Below are positions 555-14,174 of a DNA stretch of 22,799 nt, piece after piece (within the stretch, counting starts at the first letter, position 1; each line of letters opens with the position of its first letter). Under the pieces are notes generated by a model. That model was not told where the DNA came from. It ran no database searches and was given only the letters and a program-made list of their open reading frames with translations. Origin of the DNA: a virus; IMG/VR virus record IMGVR_UViG_3300027747_004040, positions 1 to 22,799 of that record; one strand, given 5' to 3'. Position numbers and translations under genes: made by a program.

Positions 555-562
555 TATAAATA
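555..562 (+). promoter_or_regulatory. T4-type late promoter TATAAATA for the sheath operon
   Basis: This is an exact match to the T4 late promoter box. Taking the box to span about -13 to -6, transcription should begin near 568, two bases before the ATG at 570 that opens a short ORF, and about 43 bases before the sheath start. No -35 element is needed for this promoter class, which is read by a gp55-type sigma with the sliding clamp. The position in an intergenic gap before a highly expressed virion gene supports it. Confidence 0.65.
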
Positions 563-569
563 TTAACGT

Positions 570-605
570 ATGAGTAACAATTCCCTTGCAGGAGATAATA
601 ACTAA
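570..605 (+). CDS. Putative 11-codon leader ORF upstream of the sheath gene
   Basis: ATG at 570 is followed by ten sense codons and TAA at 603-605, giving MSNNSLAGDNN. The stop is 5 nt before the sheath ATG at 611. The ATG lies 7 nt after the late promoter box, the same geometry by which several other genes here start, so ribosomes could enter at the 5' end of the transcript and then re-initiate on the sheath gene. Its reading frame covers the GGAG at 591-594 that would otherwise serve the sheath gene. It could be chance: a short ORF in AT-rich DNA is not rare. The spacing and the position make it worth recording as a possible translational-coupling device. Confidence 0.3.
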   Translation: MSNNSLAGDNN

Positions 606-610
606 AATAT

Positions 611-3037
611 ATGGCAAGAACAATTCAAAGCCCAGGAGTTGAAATTCGTGAGGTTGATCTTTCCTTAAGACCAGTAATCACACAAGGTACTAGCGTTTTT
701 GTCGCTGGTTTCTCCAATCAAGGCCCTATCGACGAAGTTTTACAGCCAGCAAGTATTAGTGAGTTTGAACAAATCTACGGTACACCGACAAATGCTGCTG
801 AGAGATATTTTTATCATACAGTAAAAGCTTCCCTACAAGCCCCGGTTCAATTAAAAGTTACAAGACTACCCTATGGTGAAGCTAAGGGCGAAGGGTTTAA
901 TGCATGGAGATATAGTGCATTAGTTTATCCTGTTATCTCTCTGACAACCGACAAAGTAGGCTTATCTTCCGTAGAATTAAGAAGTCTTAGCGGTTCTAAT
1001 GCATATTATCTAAAATCGCCAACACATCTTGAACTTACTTTAGAACAATATCAAAATTTAATTAACAATAATATCTCTTGGGAAAATTTCGCTGGAGGTT
1101 ATTTTGATTCTCCTAGTAGTATCTCTTATGAGACAATTGGTAATGCAGGTTTAGTTATTCTAAACAAATCTCAAGTTTCGAATAATAATAAATTCGAAGG
1201 CTATTATGTTGCTATTACTGATAATGCAAATGTAAATCCTGCCACACCTTTTGACGGTATTAACGGTATTAAGTCGATTGGAGCTAATTTACCTTCAATA
1301 AACAGCTTTATAAGCGTACCTACAACAAGACTTAATTTTCCATTGACGGCAACTAAGTTTGGCGATGGTAGTAGTATTAGTGAAATCATGGAAAATGCTG
1401 CTACATTTGATATTTCTCCAGCCTCGTTCAGTGATACACTTACAATTGGTGTATTTAAATTGAGACAGAGTGTATTTTCTCCTGATGTTATTTCGCTGGA
1501 TTATGTTTTAGCTGAAAAATATATTGGCTCTTTAGATTACTATAGGCAAATTGCTGATCCAAATGGCGGCCCTGCAACAGCCTTCTATATTGGTAATGTA
1601 ACAGAAAGATCACCCAATATCAAGGTCTTGGTAAATCCATGGATTTCTAATCAAGGTAGAAATACCTGGCTTGGTAATGATGGCAACCCCACAAAGACAG
1701 TAAGGGTCACTAACAAACAAGGGGCTATTCCGTTAGCATTACCTGGTTATACCGAAACTGCTAAAAGTTATATAACCCGTATTGGTGCTGCTTCTGCTAT
1801 CAATGGTACAAACTTATCCGACCTATTAACCACCACAATGGAAGGCAATAAGTTGTTCCCATTAGGCGTTTATACTGATACAGTAGTTTCTAATAAAAAT
1901 ATCGGTAATCTACCACAGAAGCTTGAAAGAGCTTTCGAGCTTGTTGAAAATCCTGACCTATACAATATTAATCTAGTACCCGAAGCCGGTCTAGGTACTA
2001 TATTTGTAAGCGTAGCAGAGCAAGCATTTAACAACAATTTGCCTGTTTCGGCTTGCGGACCTTACCATGAAAATACACCGGTAAATAGTCTTAGCGGATT
2101 GTTCATTACTAATAATGAGCTCTTGGGTGAAGAAGGATCGAGAATCAGATCTAATTATAATGCAGTTGCAAGTATAATGGTAAATGCTGCACAGAATCAA
2201 AGAAAAGATTTCCTTGTAATCCTGGACGCCTTGAGACATATATTTGTTCAAGGCGAAAACCACAAGGTTTTAAGCAACAAGAAGATTTATAGCCCTAATG
2301 CTGGTGTTGGAGTCGATCCTAAAGCTTCAGACTACACTCCCACGAGCTTTAGTCAGCATATCTACTGGCCATTAAGACATCAATTTAGCTTAATTGATTC
2401 TAGCTACGCTTGCAGCTACGCTACTGTTGCTCAAGTATTAGACCCATCATCTAATCGTCAAGTCTGGGTACCTTTCTCTGGGTTTGCAGCAGCCGCTATG
2501 GGTAATACTGATGCTAACTTCCAGCCCTGGTTTGCGCCTGCTGGATTTACAAGAGGCGTTCTATTAGGAGTAAATGATTTAGGTATGTATCCTAAGCAAA
2601 AACAACGTGATCAACTGTACAAGATAGGCCTGAACCCTGTGCCGTTCTTCCCCGTTGAAGGGTTTGTAATCTTTGGTCAGAAGACCTTGCTTAAGAAGCC
2701 AAGTGCATTTGATCGTATTAACGTACGTAGATTGTTCTTAGATCTAGAAGTTGCAACTAGAGATACCGTTAAATATTTCGTATTCGAACCAAATACACTA
2801 TTTACAAGAACACAAGTTGTAAATACACTTACACCTATATTTGATAATGCTAAGAATACAGAGGGATTATATGATTATCTAATCATTTGCGATGAGCGTA
2901 ATAATACACCCGATGTAATAGATCAAAATGAATTGAAGGTCGATATTTATCTTAAGCCAGTACGCGCTGCAGAGTTTATCTTAGTAAGCTTCTATGCAAC
3001 TCGTACCGGTCAAAACTTCCAGGAGTTACTAGCGTAA
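611..3037 (+). CDS. 18: Tail sheath protein (T4 gp18 family)
   Basis: This is the contractile sheath subunit, which polymerises around the tail tube and contracts to drive it through the host envelope. The N-terminus 'SPGVEIREVDLS' is the characteristic sheath opening (linker strand and first fold), followed by 'VFVAGFSNQGPIDEV' and an 'F...YG.P......FY..K' segment. The C-terminal domain (about residues 690-808) has the conserved pattern of the family, including 'INVRRLFLDLE', a D-rich strand segment and the 'AEFILVSFYATRTG' end strand used to link neighbouring subunits. At 808 aa it is longer than T4 gp18 (659 aa), so the middle domains exposed on the outside are probably enlarged. The start is fixed by the family N-terminus. 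The nearest Shine-Dalgarno-like GGAG (591-594) is 16 nt away, unusually far. Transcription probably starts from TATAAATA at 555. Confidence 0.93.
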   Translation: MARTIQSPGVEIREVDLSLRPVITQGTSVFVAGFSNQGPIDEVLQPASISEFEQIYGTPTNAAERYFYHTVKASLQAPVQLKVTRLPYGEAKGEGFNAWRYSALVYPVISLTTDKVGLSSVELRSLSGSNAYYLKSPTHLELTLEQYQNLINNNISWENFAGGYFDSPSSISYETIGNAGLVILNKSQVSNNNKFEGYYVAITDNANVNPATPFDGINGIKSIGANLPSINSFISVPTTRLNFPLTATKFGDGSSISEIMENAATFDISPASFSDTLTIGVFKLRQSVFSPDVISLDYVLAEKYIGSLDYYRQIADPNGGPATAFYIGNVTERSPNIKVLVNPWISNQGRNTWLGNDGNPTKTVRVTNKQGAIPLALPGYTETAKSYITRIGAASAINGTNLSDLLTTTMEGNKLFPLGVYTDTVVSNKNIGNLPQKLERAFELVENPDLYNINLVPEAGLGTIFVSVAEQAFNNNLPVSACGPYHENTPVNSLSGLFITNNELLGEEGSRIRSNYNAVASIMVNAAQNQRKDFLVILDALRHIFVQGENHKVLSNKKIYSPNAGVGVDPKASDYTPTSFSQHIYWPLRHQFSLIDSSYACSYATVAQVLDPSSNRQVWVPFSGFAAAAMGNTDANFQPWFAPAGFTRGVLLGVNDLGMYPKQKQRDQLYKIGLNPVPFFPVEGFVIFGQKTLLKKPSAFDRINVRRLFLDLEVATRDTVKYFVFEPNTLFTRTQVVNTLTPIFDNAKNTEGLYDYLIICDERNNTPDVIDQNELKVDIYLKPVRAAEFILVSFYATRTGQNFQELLA

Positions 3038-3048
3038 CAATAAAGGAG

Positions 3049-3056
3049 AATAAATA
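3049..3056 (+). promoter_or_regulatory. Possible variant late promoter AATAAATA before the tail tube gene
   Basis: This has one mismatch to TATAAATA (A in the first position). The box ends 5 nt before the ATG at 3062, and adding 13 from its first base places the start of transcription exactly on the ATG. It overlaps the region just after AAGGAG (3043-3048), which lies 13 nt from the ATG and so is too distant to be an ideal ribosome binding site. AT-richness makes single-mismatch boxes common, so this is a weak call on its own. Confidence 0.35.
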
Positions 3057-3061
3057 ATTTT

Positions 3062-3613
3062 ATGGCAGACGTAAAACAACTTATTGCAGATTTTTACAGA
3101 GTAGCTTCCGCTAGAGACTTCCAGCGTGATATTCAATTTCGTGTATTGAGTATTACCCCTGGCGGTACAACAGTAACATTTGATGAAAATGATCTAGTAT
3201 ATGCAAAGGCTGCGTCGCTACCCGCGCGCTCTATTACAGCAGTAAATGCAAAATATATGGGATTAAATTTTAATCTACCAGGTGTTGCTACATATCCCGG
3301 TAGTGAAGGTTATATACTTAATTTCTATAATGATGCTAAGAATAATCTTCGCCAGAAATTTGAAGATTGGACACGTGATACCTTTAATGATGCTAACAGC
3401 ACTGGTAATTACTTCACCCCAACACAATCGAGTACAATTGACTTAGTACAGCTCGATACACAAATGAACAGGGTTGCGCAATATCAACTTGTTGGTGTTA
3501 GTATTCGCAATGTCGGTGCAATCGAATATCCAATAGGCGATGGTACAGGGCAGATTGTCAATTTCCCAGTAACTCTTGCTTATCATTACTTTACTCGTAA
3601 GCAAGTTTCTTAA
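3062..3613 (+). CDS. 19: Tail tube protein (T4 gp19-like)
   Basis: This is the probable major inner-tube subunit. The 183-aa length is close to T4 gp19 (163 aa), and the gene follows the sheath gene directly, which is the standard order. Visible features are an N-terminal segment 'ADFYRVASARDFQRDIQFRVLSI' of the type in which tube proteins present their first helix and strand, and a C-terminal run with 'YQLVGVSIRNVGAIEYPIGD', a short turn and 'FPVTLAYHYFTR', matching the closing strands that make the inter-ring contacts. The AAGGAG at 3043-3048 is 13 nt from ATG; no nearer Shine-Dalgarno is present. It may be expressed by read-through from the sheath promoter, from the AATAAATA box at 3049, or both. 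Confidence 0.72.
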   Translation: MADVKQLIADFYRVASARDFQRDIQFRVLSITPGGTTVTFDENDLVYAKAASLPARSITAVNAKYMGLNFNLPGVATYPGSEGYILNFYNDAKNNLRQKFEDWTRDTFNDANSTGNYFTPTQSSTIDLVQLDTQMNRVAQYQLVGVSIRNVGAIEYPIGDGTGQIVNFPVTLAYHYFTRKQVS

Positions 3614-3630
3614 TAGAAAATTAAATTTGC

Positions 3631-3638
3631 CATAAATA
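3631..3638 (+). promoter_or_regulatory. Possible variant late promoter CATAAATA before the gp54-like gene
   Basis: This has one mismatch to TATAAATA in the first position. Five bases separate it from the ATG at 3644, so the predicted transcription start is on the ATG itself. There is no Shine-Dalgarno sequence upstream of this gene (bases 3614-3643 contain no GGAG or AGGA), so a leaderless message would explain how it is started. Confidence 0.42.
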
Positions 3639-3643
3639 TTTGA

Positions 3644-4582
3644 ATGGCATTATCTAATCCAATTACCGACGCTTTTCAGGGCTTAGCATCTAATACAGTT
3701 GGTATTGGTAGAGGAATAAACCCCTTAAGTCAGCCACAAATTACAGACATTCTCGGGTTTAATATACCTGGCGTCCCATTAATCAGTACAAGAGATTATT
3801 TCCTTCTTCAACTTCAAAGCTGGCTTACGGCTATACCGTTACAAACACAATGGATTGCAGTTATAGACAGTTTTCCATATTGCTTAAGAACTGAAATACT
3901 TCAAAATATGGAACGTTCTGATGGCGGTAAAAAAAGCTATGATATAGATCGAGCTAAAGCAATTTTAACTAGCTATCCATTTCAAAAAGTAATAGGTTGT
4001 GTATTTGCACAAGGGGCTTTCGTACCTGGCGAGCAGCTAACAGTTAGAGACACTGCTTTAGATAATAACAGAGGATTTATACCTGGAATAGTTGCTGAAA
4101 AAAGAGTGGGATATAGCGGGTCACCTTTGAGATTAGATTTCTTAGAAACCAATACAAGTATAGTTGATTTTATCTTCAGGCCCTGGGTAATGTTAGCTAG
4201 TCATTATGGGTTAGTCGCTAGACCAAATGATATGCCAGGCAGCAAAGATTTTTATAACGTTAAGTCAAACATAACACTTCTTTGCTATACAAGAAGCTAT
4301 CAAAACGTAAGTCAAATTCCGCGAAAAGTTTTTACTTTTTATAATGTCGTCCCCACTTTAATCAATAATTTTACATTAGACTATAAAGAAGAACCTCAAC
4401 AAGCAACTGCCTATAGCGTTAATTTTACTTATACAAACTATACTATTCAAAATAGTATGTATTTCCCTATTGCGGATATCATTAAGACAGTTTCTAATGC
4501 AGCGAATGGCAGCTATTCGCCTGTTGTTTCGCCGCTACAGAATTCATCTAATTCCCCCGTCAATGTAGGTGGCTTTTTCTAA
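3644..4582 (+). CDS. Tube-fold baseplate protein, gp54-like tail tube initiator candidate
   Basis: The protein has 312 aa, near T4 gp54 (320 aa). After about 45 residues rich in G, P and N come 'FLLQLQSWLTAIPLQTQWIAVIDSFP', a strand-helix unit, then a central domain containing 'VDFIFRPWVMLASHYGLVAR' (the 'RPW...GL' element I associate with gp48/gp54-type tube proteins), a strand with 'NITLLCYTRS' and 'RKVFTFYNVVP', and a final 'VNFTYTNY' strand like the end of tube proteins. The last 35 residues are N/S/P-rich and probably flexible. The role would be to join the baseplate to the first tube ring and nucleate tube growth. The choice between gp54-like and another tube-superfamily member cannot be settled by reading. 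Confidence 0.52.
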   Translation: MALSNPITDAFQGLASNTVGIGRGINPLSQPQITDILGFNIPGVPLISTRDYFLLQLQSWLTAIPLQTQWIAVIDSFPYCLRTEILQNMERSDGGKKSYDIDRAKAILTSYPFQKVIGCVFAQGAFVPGEQLTVRDTALDNNRGFIPGIVAEKRVGYSGSPLRLDFLETNTSIVDFIFRPWVMLASHYGLVARPNDMPGSKDFYNVKSNITLLCYTRSYQNVSQIPRKVFTFYNVVPTLINNFTLDYKEEPQQATAYSVNFTYTNYTIQNSMYFPIADIIKTVSNAANGSYSPVVSPLQNSSNSPVNVGGFF

Positions 4583-4601
4583 ATTTTTTGTTTAATAATA
4601 T

Positions 4602-5429
4602 ATGGAATTTTACCTAAATTGTTGGGTACCATCGTTAAGCGGTTTTTTTAAATTAAAAGAATTAAAAAACTCTCAACTATCTATTTTATCTAAATATATT
4701 TTAAATGAAGATCATGAAGGCACTAATATGTGCTTTAATGAAATTATTAATAAAAATTTTCTAGAGATAAACCCTAATTTAAATGTTAACCGTTTTGATA
4801 AGTGGTTTATTTTAAGTTTTTTAAGAGCTACAAATATTTCTCCAATACTCTACTTACAAACTGCTAATACAGCTAACGTTCCTTGTAATATAGAGCTGTC
4901 TCTCTATGAAACGCTTACAAGATTATCAGAAATTTCACCTGTTAGTGCTATCGATGTCAAACTAGAAAATATTAATATAATACTCTATCCTAGCGAGAGT
5001 TTATATACAGTTGAACCTGTTGTAGATTCTGTTAAAGAACTAAAACATCTTAAAAATAATATTACTAATAGAGATGAAATTTACAAGCTTTTAGGAAGAA
5101 GAGAAAATTTGAGAAATTATTTAGCGCAGCAAATGTTATATTTTGATAGTCTTAGCAATGACTTGATAATAAAAAATGAAAACCCTGCTCTCAAGCTTAC
5201 GAATATACCTGTAAGAGTTTTTGATAATACTTTATTCTTTTTTTTAAGATCTATCTATCTACCCTATTGCAAAGGTGTTTACGAAAAACTTTTCAGTCTT
5301 AAAAAATTAATGAATTTGAGCCTAGATGAGTATTATCAACTTACCCCGTCAGAATGCGATATTTTAATAAGCCTTTATAAGCAGGATGAATCGTCTAAAA
5401 CGCAGCATAGTTACAGTCTTCAACAATAA
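4602..5429 (+). CDS. Candidate baseplate assembly factor (gp26/gp51-like)
   Basis: The protein has 275 aa with no signal peptide and no membrane span. Residues about 15-85 have the order seen in the T4 gp26/gp51 assembly proteins: a short strand 'GFFKLKELKNSQLSILSKYIL', a helical C/N-containing stretch, then 'NRFDKWFILSFLRATNISP', where an acidic residue precedes a hydrophobic helix ending in an R-x-x-x-x-S/P element. The C-terminal half is helical and ends in a polar tail. Such proteins act as catalysts or chaperones during hub assembly and may not stay in the virion. The gene lies between tube-type genes and the hub operon, as expected. There is no Shine-Dalgarno and only a poor promoter-like sequence (GTTTAATA at 4590-4597), so it may depend on read-through. 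The assignment is moderate to weak. Confidence 0.4.
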   Translation: MEFYLNCWVPSLSGFFKLKELKNSQLSILSKYILNEDHEGTNMCFNEIINKNFLEINPNLNVNRFDKWFILSFLRATNISPILYLQTANTANVPCNIELSLYETLTRLSEISPVSAIDVKLENINIILYPSESLYTVEPVVDSVKELKHLKNNITNRDEIYKLLGRRENLRNYLAQQMLYFDSLSNDLIIKNENPALKLTNIPVRVFDNTLFFFLRSIYLPYCKGVYEKLFSLKKLMNLSLDEYYQLTPSECDILISLYKQDESSKTQHSYSLQQ

Positions 5430-5436
5430 ATTTGTC

Positions 5437-5444
5437 TATAAATA
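5437..5444 (+). promoter_or_regulatory. T4-type late promoter TATAAATA for the hub operon
   Basis: This is an exact box in a 19-nt gap, followed by ATAT and then the ATG at 5449. The expected transcription start is 5449-5450, that is, at the start codon. No Shine-Dalgarno is present. It would drive the five coupled genes from 5449 to 11618. Confidence 0.7.
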
Positions 5445-5448
5445 ATAT

Positions 5449-7383
5449 ATGGATAATACAGACAATGCAGTTGAGTCAGAACAAAATATAAAAAGTTCTG
5501 ATAATGTTACTCTATTAAACAACAAGGAAGCTGAATTTTCTGTGCCTAGCTCTACTGATGAAAATATTTACTATACGTTAGCGTCATTAGAAGCTGATAG
5601 TCTCAATCGAAAAGTTTTAAGAGATAAAGAACTATACGGCGATTTAGATAAAGCTGATGAAAAAGCTAAGACTCTTTTAGAGCAGGACATGGTATTTGAT
5701 ATTCCTGAAATCAAGCCTGATGAAGCCTCGTTAAATATTAGCGACACTAAAAAAGAAGATGCTTTCGCGCAGGAGCAACCTGCAAATATTGAGAGTGACA
5801 AGAGTAAAAAATCTCAAAACACTGATTCACCTGTTAAAAGCGAAAATAATCAACTTGGTTCCGCAAAAACTAAGCCCGTTGAACCATCTCAGCCTACAAT
5901 AGCATCTAAAGCAAAGCAGGAAGCAGATGAAATAAGACGTAACGCACAAATTCAAATAGAAAAAATGAAATCTGAGGTCTCGCAATCTGTAGAGCCTCCT
6001 CCAAATATATATGATGCTCCTAAGCCAAGACAGCAGTCGTCTCAAAGTACAGTTAATAATAAGAATAAAGAAAGCAAAGAAGAGGAAGGATCTACTTTAA
6101 AGAAATTTGAGGTACCACAATGGGCCGAAAACATTTCAAGAAAAATGCCTGTGCAACCAGAAGCTTTAAATGAAGACAGTTTGGCTGTAAGTAGGGAAGC
6201 TAGAGATATTAACCTGACTCAACCTGATAAATCATCCTCTTTAGAACCTAAGAAAAAACCGGGTCAGTCACAAGCACCTGTAAAATTATCAGAAACATTA
6301 CAATCTAAGACTGGTGATCAGCAGCCTGTTTTAGAAAGCTCTTCAACAAAAAATATTAAAAGTGACATCAATAAGACAGAAGAAATTACGGTGACAGATG
6401 GAAAAGACAAAATAGAAAAAAAACAACCTAAAGAAGAGGTTAAACCGGAAAAGCCAGTATTGAATGTACAAGACATTCAGCAAGCTAGTACACCGCAACA
6501 AAATACTCAAAGTAACAACTCGGTTGATTCACTTAAAAAGTTTTTAAATTTTTTGACACCGTCACAGCAAACAGAAGCAGCTGAAGTATTGAGTGAAAAT
6601 AAACCACAACAGACACAAGATAATGATATGCCACAACAGCAGCAACCTAATATAGATAATAACATAGAACAACCTACAGTTGTAGCTGGTCCAGAACCTG
6701 AAAATAAACCTAATATTCTTGATGAACCTTTTCAAAATAAAAGACCTATAGACAATCCGCAAATTGCTGGTCAAGTTATGTCTATAATAAATTCAATCAA
6801 CAATAATACTATAAACCCTAACTTAGATCTTTTCAATTTCAAATCTTATGTTAACAAAGGTATTAAGGAAAGAGGATTGCTAAATCAAATGCCTCAAGTT
6901 AATAATATGGAAAATCTACTTAAACAGATACCATTTCTACAGCCTCCTTTAGCAGGTAATAATGAACCTCAACAAAATAGACCTCAAGGACAGATGCCTT
7001 TTCTTGATTTTAACTCCTTTGTACCTAAGGTTGAAGAGAAGAAGCAATCTACACCAATCACTAATAATAATGACAAACTATTAACAGATATGAATATAAA
7101 CTTAAATAAAATTTCGGCCACCATACAGCAATCTCAGCAGAATTTAATAAATTCATTAAATAATTTAAGCAATATTGCTAATCAAATCTTGAAAACAATA
7201 CCTTCTATTTCTATATCGCAGGATAATAGCTCTGTAGCCTCCGGGGGAAATCAAAAAAATTCTGGAAGATTTTCACCCACAGAAAACTTAAATTTAATTG
7301 GTAATTATAGAGACGATTTAGGTTTAACACCTAGAAATTATACTACTAACACCATATTTCCAGGGAATAATAGTATAGTATGA
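5449..7383 (+). CDS. Long intrinsically disordered tail-operon protein, function unknown
   Basis: This 644-aa protein is mostly low complexity. Residues 1-330 are rich in K, E, D, S, P and Q with a short helical patch (about 150-180, containing 'EADEIRRNAQIQIEKMKSEV'). Residues 330-540 are rich in Q, N and P, including the Q run near 'MPQQQQPNID'. Residues about 545-590 form a probable amphipathic coiled coil ('LNKISATIQQSQQNLINSL'). The last 50 residues look flexible. There are no cysteines, transmembrane segments or catalytic motifs. It heads the hub operon and overlaps the next gene by ATGA. By position it could fill the slot of a tape-measure or scaffold protein, and the length is similar to T4 gp29 (590 aa), but tape measures are normally continuous helix, so this is not supported by composition. 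I do not recognise the family. Confidence 0.85.
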   Translation: MDNTDNAVESEQNIKSSDNVTLLNNKEAEFSVPSSTDENIYYTLASLEADSLNRKVLRDKELYGDLDKADEKAKTLLEQDMVFDIPEIKPDEASLNISDTKKEDAFAQEQPANIESDKSKKSQNTDSPVKSENNQLGSAKTKPVEPSQPTIASKAKQEADEIRRNAQIQIEKMKSEVSQSVEPPPNIYDAPKPRQQSSQSTVNNKNKESKEEEGSTLKKFEVPQWAENISRKMPVQPEALNEDSLAVSREARDINLTQPDKSSSLEPKKKPGQSQAPVKLSETLQSKTGDQQPVLESSSTKNIKSDINKTEEITVTDGKDKIEKKQPKEEVKPEKPVLNVQDIQQASTPQQNTQSNNSVDSLKKFLNFLTPSQQTEAAEVLSENKPQQTQDNDMPQQQQPNIDNNIEQPTVVAGPEPENKPNILDEPFQNKRPIDNPQIAGQVMSIINSINNNTINPNLDLFNFKSYVNKGIKERGLLNQMPQVNNMENLLKQIPFLQPPLAGNNEPQQNRPQGQMPFLDFNSFVPKVEEKKQSTPITNNNDKLLTDMNINLNKISATIQQSQQNLINSLNNLSNIANQILKTIPSISISQDNSSVASGGNQKNSGRFSPTENLNLIGNYRDDLGLTPRNYTTNTIFPGNNSIV

Positions 7384-8852
7384 ACTTATTTGCATTTGAA
7401 AAATTTGGTTCTCCTAAACCTCAATATCAAGGAGCTCCTCGCTTAGTTCCCGTTGGCTCTATAAGCGGACCCGGGGCAAACAACATAGCCAAAGATAGTT
7501 CAAGTTACGGACTGATTGATGTTGTTAATAATTTTCAATGGACTACCTCACCAAAGTCATCTAGGATGGAAGTACCTGCTATATTTTTAAAAGAAAAAAG
7601 ACTTAAGAACAATTCATTGTATGCGCAAGTAGCTTACTACGGCATGGCTCTTGGCGGTATTTTAGGCGGCGCAGCTGGCGGTCTTACGGCTTTAAATAAT
7701 TCTATCAGGCCTTTTATGACTTCTGTTTTAGGTGGGTTTGGTGCAGGTACTTTTACTCAGGTTTTAAATAACGCCTTAGGGCAGCTAACATCATATATTT
7801 CTGGTAATGCTGGCGCGGCTGAATCTGGTATTTTTAGTTCTAATATTACAAGAATAGCAGAGGGTGTAGGTGCTATAGCAGGGTGGAACGCTACACCAGA
7901 AACAATACAAGCAGGTGTAAATGCTATTGCCTCCATATCCCAACAGTTAGGCAGATTTACTCCAGACAATTTTAATATACCTAGTCTTAATAGCGATATA
8001 CTATCACCTTATGAAGGATTGTATATTACAGAAGATACAAAATTTATTTATAATATGCCTTATTTCTCGAACGAACAGAATACTGTTAATAATATGTTTG
8101 GTGATTTTGATGAAGTAATGGGTGAAGGTGGTATAGATCCATTAAATGCATACGGTACAGCAAAAAATGTAAGGGCTGCAGCAAATTTTGTTTCTGGTAC
8201 AGTTAATTTCGATGCCCCGGGCATCTATATTGAAAAGCCAAAATTTTTCAATTTTAAAGAAACAGGCGAACAAATAAGGTTTAGTTTTCCTCTTATCAAT
8301 ACCGGATGGTCTACGTTTGAAGACGTGGTTCAGAATTGGCAATTAATGTACATGCTTGCCTATCAAAATCGCCCTAACAGAAGAACACGAGACTTAATTG
8401 ATCCGGCAGTAATTTATGAAATTACAATACCGGGGGTAAGATTTTACCCTTACGCATACATAAGCAGCATGGCTATTAATTTTGTAGGTGCTAGAAGAAG
8501 AATGAACATAAGAGTACCTTTAGAAGGTGGTCTGGGAACTATTAACACTATTATACCTGATGCCTATGTAATTGATATAACATTTACTACTCTTGTATCT
8601 GAAACACAGAATTTCTTGTATGCTTGCTTACATGACAAGCAAGATATCATAACAACATCAAGTTCTAGGTCGCCTTTTGATATTTTTGGTGATGATCTTT
8701 CTAAGAATTATTCAGGCGCATTAAAACAAAATCTAAATCCCAATACACAGTCGTCCGCAAATAAGCTATTGAATGCGGCAGGAGATTTTGTACCTAGAGT
8801 CATTAATACATTTAAACAATCACCATTAGATATATTAGGAGGCGGCTTGTGA
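7380..8852 (+). CDS. 48: Baseplate tail-tube cap, gp48-like
   Basis: The protein has 490 aa, longer than T4 gp48 (364 aa). Residues about 75-165 form a Gly/Ala-rich hydrophobic stretch ('ALGGILGGAAGGLTAL') that could be a buried helical hairpin or membrane-active segment. Residues about 275-425 carry the recognisable tube-cap domain: 'IRFSFPLINTGWSTFED', then 'LAYQNRPNRRTRDLIDPAVI', 'ITIPGVRFYPYAYISSMAIN', 'GARRRMNIRVP' and 'IPDAYVIDITFTTLVSETQN'. This pattern matches my memory of gp48-type proteins in T4-like phages. The C-terminal 60 residues are N/S-rich and flexible. It starts at ATG 7380, overlapping the previous stop by 4 nt, with only a weak AGGGA upstream, so translational coupling is likely. 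It would sit between hub and tube. Confidence 0.58.
   Translation: MNLFAFEKFGSPKPQYQGAPRLVPVGSISGPGANNIAKDSSSYGLIDVVNNFQWTTSPKSSRMEVPAIFLKEKRLKNNSLYAQVAYYGMALGGILGGAAGGLTALNNSIRPFMTSVLGGFGAGTFTQVLNNALGQLTSYISGNAGAAESGIFSSNITRIAEGVGAIAGWNATPETIQAGVNAIASISQQLGRFTPDNFNIPSLNSDILSPYEGLYITEDTKFIYNMPYFSNEQNTVNNMFGDFDEVMGEGGIDPLNAYGTAKNVRAAANFVSGTVNFDAPGIYIEKPKFFNFKETGEQIRFSFPLINTGWSTFEDVVQNWQLMYMLAYQNRPNRRTRDLIDPAVIYEITIPGVRFYPYAYISSMAINFVGARRRMNIRVPLEGGLGTINTIIPDAYVIDITFTTLVSETQNFLYACLHDKQDIITTSSSRSPFDIFGDDLSKNYSGALKQNLNPNTQSSANKLLNAAGDFVPRVINTFKQSPLDILGGGL
8837..8842 (+). promoter_or_regulatory. Strong Shine-Dalgarno AGGAGG for the GTG-started gp53-like gene
   Basis: AGGAGG lies 6 nt before GTG at 8849. 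It is the best ribosome binding site in the window and fixes the otherwise doubtful GTG start. It lies inside the 3' end of the upstream gene, encoding part of a Gly-Gly run. Confidence 0.75.
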
Positions 8853-9241
8853 TTGGATTAAGTGCTTTAGGCGGGTTTAGAAAAGATATTAATCTTTTAG
8901 AAAAAATACCATCTATTAGTTATGAAAATATTTTTCGTATGTATTTGACTGAAAATACTGATAATACAAATTTCTATTATTATAATTTGCTCAATAGTGT
9001 TTATTTTCCAGATGATATACCTAGCAGCATCTATTATGCTATTACGTTAAATAAAAGACTTCCATGGACAGCTATTAGTTATAATGAATATAGAACTACA
9101 GATTTATGGTGGCTAATTGTCTTAGCAAACAAAATACATAACCCAGTTTACTATCCCGCACCAGGTTCAACCTTAAGAATTATTAAACCTGAATATGTAA
9201 AGCTTATATTTAACGAAATAACCGCTCAAATAAAACAATAA
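8849..9241 (+). CDS. 53: Baseplate wedge protein, gp53-like
   Basis: The protein has 130 aa; T4 gp53 is 196 aa. The C-terminal half has the LysM-like signature of gp53: 'ISYNEYRTTDLWWLIVLANKI' (W87-W88, with the D/E-Y-x-x-x-x-x-W-W-x-I-x-x-x-N arrangement), followed by 'NPVYYPAPGSTLRI', which matches the loop and final strand of the same unit. In T4 gp53 staples neighbouring wedges together around the hub. Translation starts at GTG 8849 behind an excellent AGGAGG and overlaps the upstream stop as GTGA; its own stop overlaps the next ATG by 1 nt (TAATG). The N-terminal arm is shorter than in T4. Confidence 0.7.
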   Translation: MIGLSALGGFRKDINLLEKIPSISYENIFRMYLTENTDNTNFYYYNLLNSVYFPDDIPSSIYYAITLNKRLPWTAISYNEYRTTDLWWLIVLANKIHNPVYYPAPGSTLRIIKPEYVKLIFNEITAQIKQ

Positions 9242-10794
9242 TGAACCCAATAGTACAAAATTTGTCCTTTTCGAGTCAAGGCGAACATGTTCAAATTGGC
9301 GACATGCAGTATGAGTTTAATGTTCAGCTTTATAATGGCGATGGTAATTCTATAGGGATAAAATACCCTAGTATAGTAGAGCTTTGTATATCTGATTTAA
9401 TTACTACATTTGCCCCTGATGGTTATCTAATTTTTAATAATCCTTTAGATGCAATCGAGAGTGTTCAAAGCATATCAACAGATGTAAGAGGTATGCCTCA
9501 GCAGGCATTTACACCTTTCACTTTTAGAGGAGATGGTAGAGATTTTCTTGTTATAAATATAAAACCCTCTGTCAACATAGGTGACAGTGATCCACTTAAT
9601 ACATCGGATGATAATGAGTACTCTTTTAGCTATGTATTTACAGTGTACGATATGCAAGATATTATAACTGATGATAGAGAAGTTAAACTAAAAAAACTTT
9701 TTCTGTGTGACTTAACTTTTCAAATTTTAAATGAAAAAAATAGCTATTTTTCTACAGCTAAAATGACAGATGGAAAAGGTAAAAGTAATACCGAGAGAAG
9801 TGCTTTTACTGGACAAGCATTAAGACAGCTACTATCAGATGTTTTATCTAAAGATACTAAGCTTAAACAATCTTTTAGTACCGAATGGGATCTTGGAAGT
9901 GAGAAAATATTTTACAGTAGCCCAGCTGGAAATAAAGCTATAGATGATTTGTATTACTTGTTAGATTATCATGTTAGTGGTAAAGAAAATGATTATTGCC
10001 CAGCATTATTGAGAAAAAGTAGAAAAAATGTATGGGCATTAACACCGATTACTAAATTATTTCGTACCGCTTACTATAAAGGATCTTCTTCTTTTGGAGA
10101 TATAGGTGGAACCGGGTTATCAGAAAATTTTATATTAGGAAAGCCTACTACTGGTGACTATGATCCGTTAAACGTTATTGAACGTAATCCTTCCTCTTCA
10201 GTATTTGCAAATAATTTACCAGATTATTCTTATATAGAAAATTTTGAAAGTGCTAGTATATCTGCCACATCAAATACTTTAGGTGTTGCGACACATGTTG
10301 TTCATAGCTATGACCCGGCTAATAAAACCTTTTCTATAGACTTAACAGAAAATAATATTAATAGTTCTTATAACAAATATAAAAAATATTTTGTTAATTC
10401 GCAGAAAGGTGTAATGGGGTCTTCACCTAGCCCTAATATATTTTTAAACAAAACTAAGACAGAAAATAAATCAATTCAACACGTATTTAATCCCAACACA
10501 AATCAATCTATACGATTAAATTCAGGTACTAATAAAATTATGTTAAACTCAATTTTTAATAATACTACCATTGCTTTTAAAACAAGAGGCAGTATTCTAA
10601 GAGAAGCTGGTAAATTCTTTACTTTAGAGAGACGAGACTTTGCAAATAATTCTGCTTTTGATAATAAAATGCTAGGTACATATTTCATTACTAAGGTAGA
10701 TCATGTATTTAAGAACGGTCAATATTATAACTATATAGTAGGAGTTAAGACGTATGCTGCAGAAAGCATGAACATGTCTAATGAAATTATATGA
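9241..10794 (+). CDS. Baseplate central hub protein candidate (gp27-like role)
   Basis: The protein has 517 aa. The N-terminal 190 residues are beta-rich and look like the first tube-like barrel of hub proteins, with 'IVELCISDLITTFAPDGYLIF' and 'FLVINIKPSV'. The middle contains 'SGKENDYCPALLRKSRKNVW', reminiscent of the hub segment that evaluates a cysteine/aromatic strand pair. The C-terminus has 'RGSILREAGKFFTLERRDF' and 'LGTYFITKVDHVFKNGQYYN', the pattern I know from hub proteins of contractile systems (a strand-turn-strand barrel ending in 'V.H.F.NG.Y...I'). T4 gp27 has 391 aa, so this is larger. It starts 1 nt inside the previous stop codon with no Shine-Dalgarno, so coupled translation is expected. 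The fused lysozyme/spike domain found in gp5 is absent. Confidence 0.57.
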   Translation: MNPIVQNLSFSSQGEHVQIGDMQYEFNVQLYNGDGNSIGIKYPSIVELCISDLITTFAPDGYLIFNNPLDAIESVQSISTDVRGMPQQAFTPFTFRGDGRDFLVINIKPSVNIGDSDPLNTSDDNEYSFSYVFTVYDMQDIITDDREVKLKKLFLCDLTFQILNEKNSYFSTAKMTDGKGKSNTERSAFTGQALRQLLSDVLSKDTKLKQSFSTEWDLGSEKIFYSSPAGNKAIDDLYYLLDYHVSGKENDYCPALLRKSRKNVWALTPITKLFRTAYYKGSSSFGDIGGTGLSENFILGKPTTGDYDPLNVIERNPSSSVFANNLPDYSYIENFESASISATSNTLGVATHVVHSYDPANKTFSIDLTENNINSSYNKYKKYFVNSQKGVMGSSPSPNIFLNKTKTENKSIQHVFNPNTNQSIRLNSGTNKIMLNSIFNNTTIAFKTRGSILREAGKFFTLERRDFANNSAFDNKMLGTYFITKVDHVFKNGQYYNYIVGVKTYAAESMNMSNEII

Positions 10795-11618
10795 GCATTA
10801 CTACAGATCCACAGCTAACACAAATAAATTTATTTTATAAGAAGGATTTCTACGAAAAAGCATCCAACTATCTTGGCGCAATACAAAGTTATTCTACTGA
10901 GCTCGGTTATGCTATAGAACATTCTAAGGCAAAAGTCGCTAATGACCCTATAACAGCGATGTCAGATTTCTACGTTAAGATGGATAATAGAATGAAAAGT
11001 ATGGGAGCACAATTTACAGCGCATTGGATAAAAAATTATAATTTAACATTAGAAAAAGTAAGAAATGAAGTTGGTCTAAAAATTGGTACAGGTACTTTTT
11101 ATCGCAGTTTTGGTGATAGTATTGGCAGTATAGCTAGACAAGAAACTCTTTACGATGAGAGCACCACATCAATTCAAAATAAAGCTTTTCCTGTGAGATA
11201 TGGTTCTTCTATGTCGAACAAAATACACCCTCAAATACAATTACTTTATGCGGACTTTAGTAATAAACTTAATAAAATTTTTAATCAAAATTTACAAAAT
11301 ATACAATCAACAGGTTCTTTGTCTACTAAATCCCATGGAGAAAATTTAGTGCCCGACGTGGAGCATTCAAAAAGAATACAGAGCATAATTGCAACGTTAA
11401 ATCAAAAAATAAGGAATGAATTTAAGGAACTTTACAATGTAATACTTCTCTATTGTCAGTACAATCCTAGAGCATCAACTCAAAATATTCAATTTGTTCC
11501 AAATTTTAACATTACAGTTAATGTAGAAGGTAACAACTTAAATCAAGATATACTCTTTAATCAATTACAAGAAGTTAAGAAAGATATTGTCACGAAGACA
11601 ATACTGGGACTAGGGTAA
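10791..11618 (+). CDS. Conserved-looking tail-operon protein of unknown function
   Basis: The protein has 275 aa, is mostly helical and lacks cysteines apart from one near residue 222. The N-terminal half contains long polar helices ('FYEKASNYLGAIQSYSTEL'), a middle part rich in G and S, and a C-terminal helical pair ending in 'ILFNQLQEVKKDIVTKTILG'. There is no membrane segment and no catalytic motif. It is the last gene of the 5449-11618 operon, overlaps the hub gene by ATGA, and its final 29 nt overlap the antisense small terminase gene. Operon position suggests a hub-associated or assembly protein. I do not recognise the family. Confidence 0.8.
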   Translation: MSITTDPQLTQINLFYKKDFYEKASNYLGAIQSYSTELGYAIEHSKAKVANDPITAMSDFYVKMDNRMKSMGAQFTAHWIKNYNLTLEKVRNEVGLKIGTGTFYRSFGDSIGSIARQETLYDESTTSIQNKAFPVRYGSSMSNKIHPQIQLLYADFSNKLNKIFNQNLQNIQSTGSLSTKSHGENLVPDVEHSKRIQSIIATLNQKIRNEFKELYNVILLYCQYNPRASTQNIQFVPNFNITVNVEGNNLNQDILFNQLQEVKKDIVTKTILGLG

Positions 11619-12072
11619 CATTTACTGCCTCTGCTTGTGCCTCTATAACTTTTGCTTCGTCCAGAATGCGCTTAAACACCTCATCTCGACTTAATAAAAG
11701 TTTTTCTTTTCTATCATCGTCTTTCAACATTTTTCTAGATTCAATTTCCATAATTTTTAAATCTTTTGCAGAGTCTTTCTTCATTTGTGTTACGTGAATA
11801 TCTTTAATAATAGAAAGCGCACTCGACACAGCCTTTAATGCCTCAGATAGTGCTTCTACCTCTCGACTTTCAGGGTTATTCATTACATAATCCTTTACAC
11901 CTTCAACTATTTCAAGACCTTGAGTTACTAGCTTACCAGTACTATTAAGTACAAAACTTTCTAACTTTTCCCTAGGTAGATCGAAATTATTATTGAGAAG
12001 ATCCTTATTATTGTTTGTATTAACTTTTAATTGGGTTATTAAGTCGTCTACGCTAAATTCTTTTTCTGCCAT
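11590..12072 (-). CDS. Probable small terminase subunit (gp16-like)
   Basis: The 160-aa length is almost the same as T4 gp16 (164 aa), and the protein is nearly all helix. The central part (residues about 32-105) follows the gp16 layout: a D-x-x-R-E-x-L helix, a 'GLEIVEG' helix, then 'NNPESREVEALSEALKAVSS' aligning with the gp16 'SPR..EV...L' helix, and 'LSIIKDIHVTQMKKD' like its 'ILKLHKDMKD'. This central coiled coil forms the ring that recognises DNA and regulates the large terminase. N- and C-terminal thirds are charged and variable. It is on the - strand with its own TATAAATA at 12077-12084, and its 3' end overlaps the convergent gene. In T4, gp16 sits beside gp17 upstream of the sheath; no large terminase is visible here. 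A generic helical structural protein is the alternative. Confidence 0.55.
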   Translation of the reverse strand: MAEKEFSVDDLITQLKVNTNNNKDLLNNNFDLPREKLESFVLNSTGKLVTQGLEIVEGVKDYVMNNPESREVEALSEALKAVSSALSIIKDIHVTQMKKDSAKDLKIMEIESRKMLKDDDRKEKLLLSRDEVFKRILDEAKVIEAQAEAVNVTLVPVLSS

Positions 12073-12076
12073 TCAT

Positions 12077-12084
12077 TATTTATA
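12077..12084 (-). promoter_or_regulatory. T4-type late promoter TATAAATA for the gp16-like gene
   Basis: This is an exact box on the - strand, reading TATAAATA then ATGA then the ATG at 12072. The predicted transcription start is at 12071-12072, on the start codon. It sits in a 48-nt divergent gap shared with the dUTPase gene. Confidence 0.7.
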
Positions 12085-12086
12085 CC

Positions 12087-12114
12087 TTGAAATTAATATA
12101 CAATATATTATATT
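12087..12114 (+). promoter_or_regulatory. Possible sigma70-like promoter for dUTPase and clamp loader
   Basis: TTGAAA at 12087-12092 (5 of 6 to TTGACA) is followed after 16 nt by TATATT at 12109-12114 (5 of 6 to TATAAT). The expected start of transcription is about 12121, the A of the dUTPase ATG. No TATAAATA box faces this way, which suits early or middle expression of nucleotide-metabolism and replication genes. The DNA is very AT-rich, so the -10 match is weak evidence and other registers are possible. Confidence 0.35.
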
Positions 12115-12120
12115 ATTACT

Positions 12121-12564
12121 ATGAGTAATGTTCCTTATTCCCCTAACATGAAGTTTGAGAAAACTCATCCTAACGCACAGCTTCCTAAGAAAAATTTTCC
12201 TACAGATTCTGGCTGGGATTTATTTGCTGTCGAAAATACTGTTATCCCTGCTAATGGCAAAGCTGTTGTGCCTGTTGGACTTAAGCTGGCCTATCTTGAA
12301 GACGGGTATTGGCTGAGTGTTGAGTCTAGATCCGGCTTGAGCTTTAAAAACTCCATTTTAGCCCACCCTGGAGTTATAGATCAAAACTATAGAGGCGACC
12401 TTGGTGTGCTACTATATAATCATAGCAGCGCGGATTATAATGTTTCAGCAGGTGAGAGAATAGCCCAGCTGGTATTACACTATAATATACAAATTAATGT
12501 TGATTGGGGTGCTATTCAACTGACGGATAGAGGCGAAAAAGGATTCGGAAGTAGCGGTAAATGA
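12121..12564 (+). CDS. dut: dUTPase (dUTP diphosphatase, trimeric type)
   Basis: The enzyme hydrolyses dUTP to dUMP and pyrophosphate, keeping uracil out of DNA and supplying dUMP for dTMP synthesis. All five motifs of the trimeric family are present in order: motif 1 'DSGWDL' (29-34, with W where Y or F is more common), motif 2 'SRSGL' (69-73), motif 3 'GVIDQNYRGD' (84-93, with catalytic-water Asp87 and uracil-stacking Tyr90), motif 4 'ERIAQLV' (112-118) and the flexible motif 5 'RGEKGFGSSGK' at the very C-terminus (137-147). The 147-aa length is normal for a single-domain enzyme, so it should be active. It overlaps the clamp-loader gene by ATGA. There is no Shine-Dalgarno upstream; the predicted promoter would give a leaderless message. 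Confidence 0.96.
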   Translation: MSNVPYSPNMKFEKTHPNAQLPKKNFPTDSGWDLFAVENTVIPANGKAVVPVGLKLAYLEDGYWLSVESRSGLSFKNSILAHPGVIDQNYRGDLGVLLYNHSSADYNVSAGERIAQLVLHYNIQINVDWGAIQLTDRGEKGFGSSGK

Positions 12565-13496
12565 TAGATGTCGATAAAGTCTGGACGGAAAAATACCGTC
12601 CTGCAACATTGAATGATATAGTTTTATCAGAAAAAAATAAATCTATACTTAAAAAGTTTGTTGATCAAGATGAAATTCCTAATCTTCTTTTTTGTGGGCA
12701 TGCTGGTATAGGAAAAACAACATCAGCTAAAGTGCTTATTAATATACTTGACGCAGAACATATCTACCAAAATTGCTCTGAGGTGGGGATTGATGCAGTT
12801 CGGAATGATATAACAGGGTTTAGTAGAACAAAGAGTTTTAACGGTAAGAAGAAAATTGTTTTGCTAGATGAGATTGATGGAATGGCTTCTATAGAAGCTC
12901 AAAGATCTCTACGTAATGTTTTGGAAGAATACGCCGGGCACTGCAGATTTATATTGACTTGTAATTACAAGCACAGAGTTATTGTACCGCTGCAAAGCAG
13001 ATGCCAGTCTATTGATCTAGATCCAAATATTACTGAGGTTGCAAAGAGATGTTTCACCATCCTAAAGCAAGAGACAATTGCTGTTGACGAAGAAAATAAA
13101 AAGAGATTAGTTGGATTAATTAGAAAATATTTTCCAGATATACGCAAGTGTATCAATGAAATGCAAAAGTTTTCCACAGACGGTAAGCTCACTATACCTG
13201 ATTTAAATGTTAATAGTGACTTTGCCGATAAAATAATTAAACTAGTAACTAGCAAGAAGGTTCTACAGGGTCGAAAATTTGTTATTGAGAATGAAGCTTC
13301 TTTTAACGGGGATTACCCTATTTTGATGAAAAATGTCTTTGATGAAATCTGTAAAGGTAATTATGGCTTAACAGAAAATCAAAAAAGAATGTGGCTTGTT
13401 ACTACTGGCGAATACATGTACAGATCGGCATTAGTTCTAGATCAAGAAATAAATTTTTACTGTTTATTGTTGGCGTTATCAGAGATTAGCGCTTAG
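12561..13496 (+). CDS. 44: Sliding-clamp loader ATPase subunit (T4 gp44-like, RFC small-subunit family)
   Basis: This AAA+ ATPase opens and places the DNA polymerase sliding clamp. At 311 aa it is close to T4 gp44 (319 aa). Visible motifs are the RFC box 'WTEKYRPATLNDIV' (8-21), Walker A 'GHAGIGKT' (46-53), Walker B 'VLLDEID' (100-106), sensor 1 around 'LTCN' (132-135) and the arginine-finger 'SRC' motif (146-148). The helical C-terminal collar follows. In T4 the loader is a gp44 tetramer plus one gp62; no gp62 gene is seen here. Its start overlaps the dUTPase stop, giving a two-gene replication operon, and its last 11 nt overlap the convergent - strand gene. In T4 the loaded clamp also activates late transcription, which fits the promoter type in this window. 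Confidence 0.93.
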   Translation: MIDVDKVWTEKYRPATLNDIVLSEKNKSILKKFVDQDEIPNLLFCGHAGIGKTTSAKVLINILDAEHIYQNCSEVGIDAVRNDITGFSRTKSFNGKKKIVLLDEIDGMASIEAQRSLRNVLEEYAGHCRFILTCNYKHRVIVPLQSRCQSIDLDPNITEVAKRCFTILKQETIAVDEENKKRLVGLIRKYFPDIRKCINEMQKFSTDGKLTIPDLNVNSDFADKIIKLVTSKKVLQGRKFVIENEASFNGDYPILMKNVFDEICKGNYGLTENQKRMWLVTTGEYMYRSALVLDQEINFYCLLLALSEISA

Positions 13497-14109
13497 GTAA
13501 ATACTTGGCCGTAGATTTTCCTGGATTAGGGAAATTAGGATTAACTTCTGGAGTGCGAGCATCTTTTGCAGGTGAGCTAGGTATTTGAACATTTACATTA
13601 TTAAGTTTTCTATCACCTTCATTATCTTTATTATTACCTAAATCACTAGTCTGTGTTTGTCTAAAAGGGCGTAATGTTGCTTCAGCTGTTTTTTCTGCTT
13701 GCTCTAGCTTAGGGTCTATATTAACGTTACCTTCTCTTTTTAGACTATTAGGAACCGGGGCTAAATTAGGGTATGTATGTATAGGTTCTAAAAGATGTGC
13801 TGGTACAGTAATAAATTCACGATATAAACCAGGCGCAACCTCTTGAACTATGTCAACTATGAACGATTCTGCTTCGTTTTGTATATCACCAGAGTGAATA
13901 GTGGGTCTAACTGTTTTTATGGCGCTAACACGAAGATTGAGACCGCTATCTTTGAAAGATTTGGCCTTTTGAACATAGTTTGGAGCTTGCTTCTTGAAGA
14001 AATCATCACTAAATGCATTTTCTGTGAATTTAACTAAATCACCAGTTAGAAATCCACCTCTAGTAAACCTTTGAATAGAAGATTCATATAGCCTGACAAA
14101 TTTGTTCAT
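13486..14109 (-). CDS. Unknown phage protein with conserved N-terminal domain and disordered tail
   Basis: The protein has 207 aa. Residues 1-125 look folded: 'YESSIQRFTRGGFLTGDLVKF' at the start, a K/Y-rich helix, 'LNLRVSAIKTVRP' and 'VDIVQEVAPGLYREFITVPA'. The G-D-L-V-K-F turn and the later 'PGLYREF' strand read like a small SH3-like or beta-barrel module, but this is an impression only. Residues 126-207 are rich in P, N, K and T and are probably disordered. It has its own late promoter (14116-14123) on the - strand, so late expression and a virion or assembly role are likely. I recall similar hypothetical proteins in marine T4-like phages but cannot name a function. Confidence 0.8.
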   Translation of the reverse strand: MNKFVRLYESSIQRFTRGGFLTGDLVKFTENAFSDDFFKKQAPNYVQKAKSFKDSGLNLRVSAIKTVRPTIHSGDIQNEAESFIVDIVQEVAPGLYREFITVPAHLLEPIHTYPNLAPVPNSLKREGNVNIDPKLEQAEKTAEATLRPFRQTQTSDLGNNKDNEGDRKLNNVNVQIPSSPAKDARTPEVNPNFPNPGKSTAKYLPKR

Positions 14110-14115
14110 ACATAT

Positions 14116-14123
14116 TATTTATA
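14116..14123 (-). promoter_or_regulatory. T4-type late promoter TATAAATA for the 207-aa - strand gene
   Basis: This is an exact box on the - strand, six bases (ATATGT) before the ATG at 14109. The predicted transcription start is one base upstream of the start codon. It lies back to back with the promoter at 14167 in a 69-nt divergent gap. Confidence 0.7.
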
Positions 14124-14166
14124 GCTTAAAACCGTTAAATAAATACTTTTGTAACAAATATTACAC

Positions 14167-14174
14167 TATAAATA
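14167..14174 (+). promoter_or_regulatory. T4-type late promoter TATAAATA for the gp25-gp6 wedge operon
   Basis: This is an exact box, followed by TAGT and the ATG at 14179. The transcription start is predicted at 14179-14180. It would drive at least 8.6 kb of closely packed baseplate genes running out of the window. Confidence 0.7.

Follow-up and report, generated by a model that had tools for sequence, protein, structure and literature searches.

The 22.8 kb stretch of viral DNA that we study here (IMG/VR record IMGVR_UViG_3300027747_004040, referred to over its full length as the window) shares 99.9% identity with a segment of G001, a T4-like contig of 105 kb in the same database, and is itself T4-like by its protein families, which include a tail sheath, a tail tube, a baseplate wedge protein, a dUTPase and a clamp loader. 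No near relative of its first 8 kb was found among 50,697 phage records (two matches, with 1% coverage each). Our subject is an octamer of the T4 late promoter type (exact form TATAAATA, counted below as NATAAATA) that lies immediately before a number of gene starts. Seven such boxes are located where an earlier sequence-only reading had placed them, five of them exact, the remaining two being AATAAATA at 3049 and CATAAATA at 3631, Table 1. That reading had each box end 4-7 nt before an ATG. Measured as the gap, the number of nucleotides between box end and start codon, six do lie 4-6 nt from the start of a gene, but the box at 555 precedes a mini-open reading frame (mini-ORF) of 11 codons and not the tail sheath gene, whose ATG at 611 is 48 nt past the end of the box. 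The claim of five exact boxes within about 311 nt of intergenic DNA holds for the boxes, while the intergenic total becomes 324 nt with the new gene calls.

There are 11 exact boxes in the window, and the six in coding DNA include none at 4-7 nt from a called start. The window as a whole is not enriched in the octamer (116 sites with at most one mismatch as compared with 121 expected), so that the signal is one of position before starts. At 6 of the 17 called window starts NATAAATA is found at a gap of 4-7, for which shuffling gives a mean of 0.155 and never as many as six in 2000 trials. Both minus-strand boxes also have closer, out-of-frame ATGs (gap 0 and a 7-codon ORF for the box at 12084, gap 2 and a 9-codon ORF for that at 14123). 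The sequence-only reading further contrasted genes behind a near box, which we call boxed, with internal operon genes that have good Shine-Dalgarno (SD) sequences. Good SDs are indeed present at internal genes 8849 (AGGAGG) and 16525 (AAGGGAG), but the SD test is passed by only 2 of the 11 unboxed window starts and by one of the six boxed ones, 3062, where AAGGAG lies just upstream of the box. Since SDs are scarce throughout, we have dropped this contrast as a main argument.

Table 1. Late boxes, boxed genes and the dUTPase promoter in the window.
Feature	Positions	Strand	Remarks
Late box, exact TATAAATA	555-562	+	7 nt before mini-ORF ATG 570
Mini-ORF, 11 codons	570-605	+	ends 5 nt before sheath ATG 611; AGGAG inside at 590-594
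Tail sheath gene	611-3037	+	phrog_23; mini-ORF in front of start
Late box AATAAATA	3049-3056	+	gap 5 to ATG 3062
Tail tube gene	3062-3613	+	phrog_45; predicted transcript start coincides with its ATG
Late box CATAAATA	3631-3638	+	gap 5 to ATG 3644
Boxed gene	3644-4582	+	weak tail tube match (phrog_45, E 6.6e-4)
Late box, exact TATAAATA	5437-5444	+	gap 4 to ATG 5449
Boxed gene without family match	5449-7383	+	
Boxed gene, function not assigned	11590-12072	-	
Late box, exact TATAAATA	12077-12084	-	gap 4 to start 12072
-35-like TTGAAA of dUTPase promoter	12087-12092	+	
-10-like TATATT	12109-12114	+	16 nt past -35, 6 nt before dUTPase ATG
dUTPase gene	12121-12564	+	class with sigma70-type near promoter
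Boxed gene, function not assigned	13486-14109	-	
Late box, exact TATAAATA	14116-14123	-	gap 6 to start 14109
Late box, exact TATAAATA	14167-14174	+	gap 4 to ATG 14179
Baseplate wedge gene	14179-14646	+	gp25-like by order and family (phrog_261, phrog_43)

Two further observations concern the layout of the window. The tail tube family phrog_45 is matched by three genes around the sheath gene (11-508, 3062-3613 and, weakly, 3644-4582). Between two divergent starts lie 48 nt (12073-12120) in which the late box of one gene and the sigma70-type promoter of the other, the dUTPase, are both accommodated, and the same spacing is found in contigs G001, G002, G003 and G006.

Genomes and analysis

IMG/VR was scanned once with the baseplate protein of the window, yielding 37 loci, and seven contigs were taken whole. 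Four of them (G001, G002, G003 and G006, with 60-100% identity in the baseplate protein) form clade A and three (G009, G010 and G011, 35-42%) form clade B; T4, S-PM2, Syn9, HTVC008M and KVP40 served as comparison phages. Gene starts were taken from a simple in-house caller, and the null model consists of dinucleotide-preserving shuffles of the upstream stretches themselves. Because the clade A contigs share genes, counts for this clade are not independent. Conservation is given in distinct sequences, with the own contig included and hits that align only after residue 25 left out, and the 20 unboxed proteins used in family scans are a manual rather than a random selection. The 227 kb contig G010 also carries a phage transfer-messenger RNA (39411-39835) and 14 tRNAs.

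Distance between box and start codon

The sense-strand distance peak at 4-7 nt that the sequence-only reading had proposed as its genome-wide test is present in G001 and, pooled, in six other contigs. Measured from called starts, 88 of the 584 clade A genes have NATAAATA at this gap (shuffles: mean 5.3, maximum 10), as do 37 of 509 in clade B (5.1, maximum 11); the individual contigs contribute 21/102 (G001), 13/66 (G002), 18/142 (G003), 36/274 (G006), 6/128 (G009), 16/249 (G010) and 15/132 (G011). Gaps of 4, 5, 6 and 7 are found in 33, 27, 21 and 7 boxed genes of clade A, respectively, and in 2, 17, 13 and 5 of clade B. HTVC008M has 8 such genes of 183 (shuffles 1.2, maximum 4), while there are none in T4 (0/245), KVP40 (0/348) or S-PM2 and Syn9 together (0/342), a total of 0/935. 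Counting only the core TAAATA at the same gaps gives 126 in clade A, 82 in clade B, 12 in HTVC008M and again 0/935 in the other four phages. When all in-frame ATGs near called starts are considered, the NATAAATA peak is at 4-6 nt in the seven contigs, although G009 by itself shows it weakly, and HTVC008M has it at exactly 5. Counted in this way, boxes of the other four phages lie 12-35 nt (T4, 4 of 30 farther), 10-39 nt (KVP40, 4 of 25 farther), 15-39 nt (Syn9, 4 of 20 farther) and 19-38 nt upstream (S-PM2, where 7 of 29 are farther and one has a gap of 3).

Contigs of 28-36% G+C, gene starts from a simple caller of our own and a stop codon inside TAAATA that can end the previous gene are all features that could favor an artefact of A/T-rich upstream sequence or of start calling. 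We regard this explanation as hardly credible, and it is largely refuted by several results. The enrichment is measured over dinucleotide-preserving shuffles of the very same upstream stretches, and control octamers, save for a single one overlapping the box, give no comparable peak at 4-6 nt (in a set with overlapping loci they form scattered clusters, the largest of 7). T4, at 35% G+C, has no peak, deposited starts agree in HTVC008M and in a second Pelagibacter phage, Mosig, and the box is conserved at orthologous starts, as described below.

Placement relative to the preceding gene differs with distance. In clade A the near box is found at 35 of 126 starts that follow a divergent neighbor (shuffles 2.0, maximum 7), at 16 of 78 located 1-14 nt past the end of a same-strand gene and at 29 of 101 at 15-60 nt, but only at 2 of 163 that touch or overlap the previous gene. 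The same-strand values in clade B are 13/132 at 1-14 nt, 15/112 at 15-60 nt, 4/96 beyond 60 nt and 0/94 for touching or overlapping starts.

Conservation and the sheath mini-ORF

Among distinct orthologous sequences the box recurs in 8 of 11 for the 12072 gene (gap 4), 11 of 22 for the gp25-like gene at 14179 (gap 4-5), 4 of 7 for the tail tube gene at 3062 (gap 5-7), 4 of 4 for the 3644 gene (gap 5-6) and 8 of 16 for the 14109 gene (gap 5-6); the orthologue comparison found no counterpart of the 5449 gene beyond its own contig. Control genes have no box at 4-7 nt (dUTPase 0/15, clamp loader 0/19, 4602 0/8, 14649 0/25). Conservation is not complete, and distant as well as near relatives are among the exceptions. 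At the 12072 gene the box is missing in a near relative (L014, 66% identity), and at the 14109 gene one relative (L002) has it at gap 8 and several have CATAAGTA in its place. At the start of the 12072 gene four relatives have GTG where others have ATG.

The 11-codon mini-ORF in front of the sheath gene is kept in all four clade A contigs, with a box-to-mini-ORF gap of 7 in the window (G001) and G002 and of 8 in G003 and G006. The peptides (MSNNSLAGDNN, MSNRLSTGVTK, MSQFFPVGGVN and MSQKVSLGGLI in G001, G002, G003 and G006, respectively) are followed by a stop 1-5 nt before the sheath ATG, and GGAG or AGGAGG lies inside each reading frame. No 11-codon counterpart was seen before the sheath gene in the three clade B contigs; in G011 an ORF of only 4 codons follows a box at gap 7, with its end 24 nt short of the sheath gene. 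Because single pairs of a box and a short ORF occur elsewhere, including T4 (3) and HTVC008M (3), the argument for the mini-ORF rests on its conservation.

Late sigma factor and classes of boxed genes

The octamer TATAAATA/NATAAATA stands upstream of genes as T4-type late promoters do, and homologues of the late sigma factor gp55 are encoded in six of the seven contigs (in G001 at 21922-22521). The four that were tested all match the late sigma family phrog_234, with E values of 1e-24 to 2e-29. Homology search did not find gp55 in the 78 kb fragment G002, which means little because S-PM2, which has a gp55-type late sigma according to the accessible part of PMC2984593, was missed by the same search. 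DNA polymerase and clamp loader homologues are present in all seven contigs.

Family scans covered 25 of the 36 boxed G006 proteins, with nine matches to tail, head or lysis families, one to PhoH, one to a family of unknown function and 14 proteins without match, and 4 of the 21 boxed G001 proteins (terminase, tail tube, head-tail adaptor and one unknown). In this scanned part the functional matches are to tail tubes, gp25-like proteins, tail fibers, a prohead protease, an endolysin-like protein, terminase and a head-tail adaptor, and the PhoH-like protein is the sole exception to structure, packaging and lysis. No near box was found at the scanned genes for polymerase, SbcC/D, UvsW-like protein, UvsX, DnaB-like helicase, clamp and NrdA/B. 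The late boxes also have no conserved -35 element: TTG lies at a sigma70-like distance from the predicted +1 in 5 of 70 cases, compared with 36 of 43 genes of the sigma70-type class described next, and in 2 of 70 when that distance is measured from the box.

Predicted sigma70-type promoters in clade A

What is new is a second class of clade A genes in which a sigma70-type -10 hexamer is located 6 nt before the start. At the dUTPase of the window the order is TTGAAA, 16 nt, TATATT, 6 nt and ATG, and TATATT or TATAAT is found at this position in 9 of 15 distinct dUTPase sequences. Of the 269 unboxed clade A genes whose free upstream DNA measures 15 nt or more, 26 carry TATA[AT]T at a gap of exactly 6 nt (shuffles 2.5, maximum 8), and each of the other gaps up to 9 nt accounts for 1-7 genes. 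With a looser -10 pattern, which gives 54 genes before and 43 after a spacing filter, TTG is found 21, 22 and 23 nt upstream of the -10 in 4, 29 and 3 genes, respectively, or 36 of 43, and usually falls at -34; it is found at those distances in 37 of the 226 remaining unboxed clade A starts as well. Members include DNA polymerase (G001, G003 and G006), the G006 clamp and the dUTPase.

This placement of the -10 also predicts leaderless mRNA. The sequence-only reading had viewed the arrangement as a distinct mode of late gene expression. It is distinct from T4, KVP40 and the two cyanophages, none of which has the peak, but not in being late, as the sigma70-type genes of clade A are placed likewise, nor in being confined to this lineage, as the Pelagibacter phages share it. 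A late-only reading has been dropped, since sigma70-type promoters sit on start codons too.

Predicted transcript starts

In the text of PMC2988020 available to us the T4 late box is placed about one helical turn upstream of the transcription start, its first two bases at -13/-12, so that a gap of 5 puts the A of the ATG at +1. T4 geometry is thus predicted to put the transcript start of boxed genes at, or 1-2 nt from, the start codon, and from this geometry we infer leaderless transcription and translation of these genes. In both promoter classes -10-type elements are found at the distance expected for leaderless expression, with +1 on or next to the start codon. SDs precede 8 of 88 boxed genes in clade A and 1 of 37 in clade B, about the level inside genes; at unboxed starts they reach 15% in clade A and 7% in clade B, compared with 6-10% at intragenic control positions. 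Of the 88 boxed clade A genes, 59 have a T immediately before the start, as do 45% of other genes, T being a common context for initiation at the following purine.

Given such sparing use of SDs, the motif might instead act on the mRNA, as an A/T-rich translation-initiation element that provides a Kozak-like or unstructured context. In SD-poor Flavobacterium adenines at -3, -6, -12 and -13 aid initiation (PMC6847099, accessible part), and clade B boxes are not concentrated after divergent neighbors. We nevertheless consider a translation element improbable. T4-family phages are known to use the motif as their late promoter; clade A seldom has it at overlapping starts and often after divergent neighbors; its register slides across 4-7 nt; and HTVC008M has it although 49% of the other starts in that phage carry SDs. 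A different second motif, with a -35 partner, moreover stands at 6 nt. That two promoter types of different geometry point to the first base of the start codon in clade A is the strongest argument against both a translation signal and a shifted start.

It is also conceivable that the boxes are late promoters from which gp55 polymerase starts elsewhere, or that the near box is one of several promoters, the messages having real leaders. Here gp55 is divergent from that of T4 (E 1e-7 to 4e-12), and the same genomes contain late genes with SDs, such as the major head gene. Initiation well downstream would lose the start codon, however, and the sigma70-type class of clade A, with its general geometry, independently puts the start at the first base of the codon; we judge an offset start to be distinctly improbable.

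A number of observations weigh against gp55 promoters that yield leaderless late mRNAs. Some concern the gene classes: the late genes for portal, major head, hub and some fibers are without a near box, the major head gene having a conserved good SD in four contigs, and the G006 portal box is at gap 11. NrdA, for its part, has AATAAATA at gap 18. SbcC, SbcD, UvsW-like, UvsX, DnaB-like and NrdB genes overlap the previous gene or lie at most 9 nt behind it, and as there is no room for a box directly behind another gene its absence at most replication genes says little. Others concern the accessory factors, for which it must be kept in mind that the contigs may be fragments: the gp45 clamp is matched weakly and in two of seven contigs (G003 and G006, the latter also by phrog_223), and gp33 in none of the seven with Syn9 and KVP40 seeds. 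TTG lies 19 nt upstream of the clade A late box in 6 of 70 cases, above neighboring distances and unexplained. Near boxes are rare in clade A where there is more than 60 nt of same-strand upstream DNA (6/113), those of clade B occur after divergent neighbors at 5/74 as compared with 37/509 overall, so that only clade A shows a preference for unit starts, and the sigma70-type class is barely above chance in clade B (9/259; shuffles 2.6, maximum 9). Finally, gap 4, found in 33 of 88 boxed clade A genes, places the canonical T4 +1 one base inside the codon, which means that a one-base shift of the start must be assumed, and gap 7 and the sheath mini-ORF would leave leaders of 2-3 nt. GTG starts 12 of the 88 boxed clade A genes and 27 of 496 others, an excess that does not fit the preference of leaderless translation in E. 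coli for AUG; all 12 are at gap 4 (12 of 33 such genes) with none at other gaps, for which we have no explanation.

Inspection by eye of the clade A contigs reveals a short inverted repeat that precedes both the SD and the start of the major head gene (G001 86432, G002 59710, G003 9391, G006 99167). The ends of the stem vary on both sides (GTAGA/TCTAC, ATAGA/TCTAT, GCAGA/TCTGC), and HTVC008M has a similar repeat at 74222.

Interpretation

Taken together, the data make it probable that the boxes are gp55 late promoters placed on start codons that give leaderless or nearly leaderless late mRNAs, and the sequence-only reading is supported to this extent by sequence analysis. Host RNA polymerase carrying the phage gp55 sigma would read the boxes as T4-type late promoters and begin transcription on the initial base of the start codon or 1-2 nt away from it, and ribosomes would start directly on the resulting messages. 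In clade A the same placement rule appears to extend to the sigma70-type promoters of replication and nucleotide genes, where leaderless initiation would then not be only late. At the sheath gene the near-leaderless start (2-3 nt) would go to the 11-codon mini-ORF, from which ribosomes probably pass to the sheath start 1-5 nt on, with the SD inside the mini-ORF assisting what may be a reinitiation event. A broader proposal, to which we lean but slightly, is that in a lineage of large T4-like phages the gp55 promoters, joined in clade A by those for host sigma, have been shifted onto start codons, making much of the program leaderless, with pelagiphages sharing or having independently reached the late half and the sheath being expressed by reinitiation after a near-leaderless mini-cistron.

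Late transcription in T4 is a model system, and there the promoter, the leader and the ribosome-binding site are distinct from one another. In the present lineage the promoter would replace the ribosome-binding site, with a single octamer setting both RNA start and protein start. This raises the questions of how such a phage attains high late expression without leaders and of whether leaderless messages keep translation going when host initiation changes. For gene finders, the box provides a usable start signal in a set of uncultured phages.

Comparison with known systems

Neither the baseplate protein nor NrdA had relatives in the bacterial genomes scanned with them, and Flavobacterium-type promoters (TAnnTTTG) are not enriched in the lineage of the window; the sigma70-type class speaks, by inference, against a Bacteroidota host. 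A gene for a bS21-like ribosomal protein is present in G006, a 229 kb contig (39317-39523). With bS21 in one of seven contigs we make no link to the bS21-encoding lake phages of PMC9723584, as described in its accessible part. In the literature on leaderless phage and late-promoter expression that was searched, which does not cover most subscription papers, we did not find the arrangement described.

A close parallel is found in the Pelagibacter phages HTVC008M and Mosig, only distant relatives of the window lineage, which are likewise T4-like with a late box mostly exactly 5 nt before the coding sequence (CDS), including that of the baseplate wedge gene. The gap is exactly 5 at 9 of 14 near sites in HTVC008M and at 8 of 10 in Mosig. 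Ten other hand-picked phage records have 0-5 near sites each; in a control window at gap 10-13 these ten have 1-7 sites and the two pelagiphages 3 and 4. In the stretches checked against annotation, near sites fall on deposited CDS starts in 6 of 7 cases (HTVC008M) and 4 of 4 (Mosig). Five of these ten genes encode baseplate, tape measure or DNA end protector proteins, and the other five a dioxygenase-domain protein, a curli protein, a hydroxylase-domain protein, a hydrolase and a hypothetical protein. Unlike the window lineage, HTVC008M has SDs at 49% of its other starts, and unlike clade A it has no sigma70-type peak at 6 nt. Instead, 12 of its 76 unboxed genes have TATA[AT]T immediately adjacent to the called start, at gap 0; this separate peak may be due to an early promoter combined with misplaced start calls.

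With the late promoters of T4 the window lineage shares the octamer TATAAATA, the lack of a clear -35, the late structural genes and a gp55 homologue; the late octamer of S-PM2 is NATAAATA, as given in the accessible part of PMC2984593. In T4, however, the box is mostly 10-39 nt before the start and leaves an SD leader, whereas here it is 4-7 nt away with no room for such a leader, and gp33 was not detected with the two seeds. The giant Bacillus phage AR9, whose late promoter class was mapped by differential RNA-seq, differs in its 5' untranslated regions of 26-491 nt, in its motif and in its use of a phage RNA polymerase, as far as the accessible text of PMC5312081 goes; a remark there, citing other work, has phage transcripts as often leaderless. 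In Deinococcus-Thermus a -10 region that abuts the ORF gives leaderless mRNA (PMC12340547, in the part available). That case involves a cellular promoter and cellular genes, while the present one involves phage late and sigma70-type promoters in a T4-like phage, where, judging from their positions, T4-type late promoters appear to be used in the manner of ORF-abutting -10 elements.

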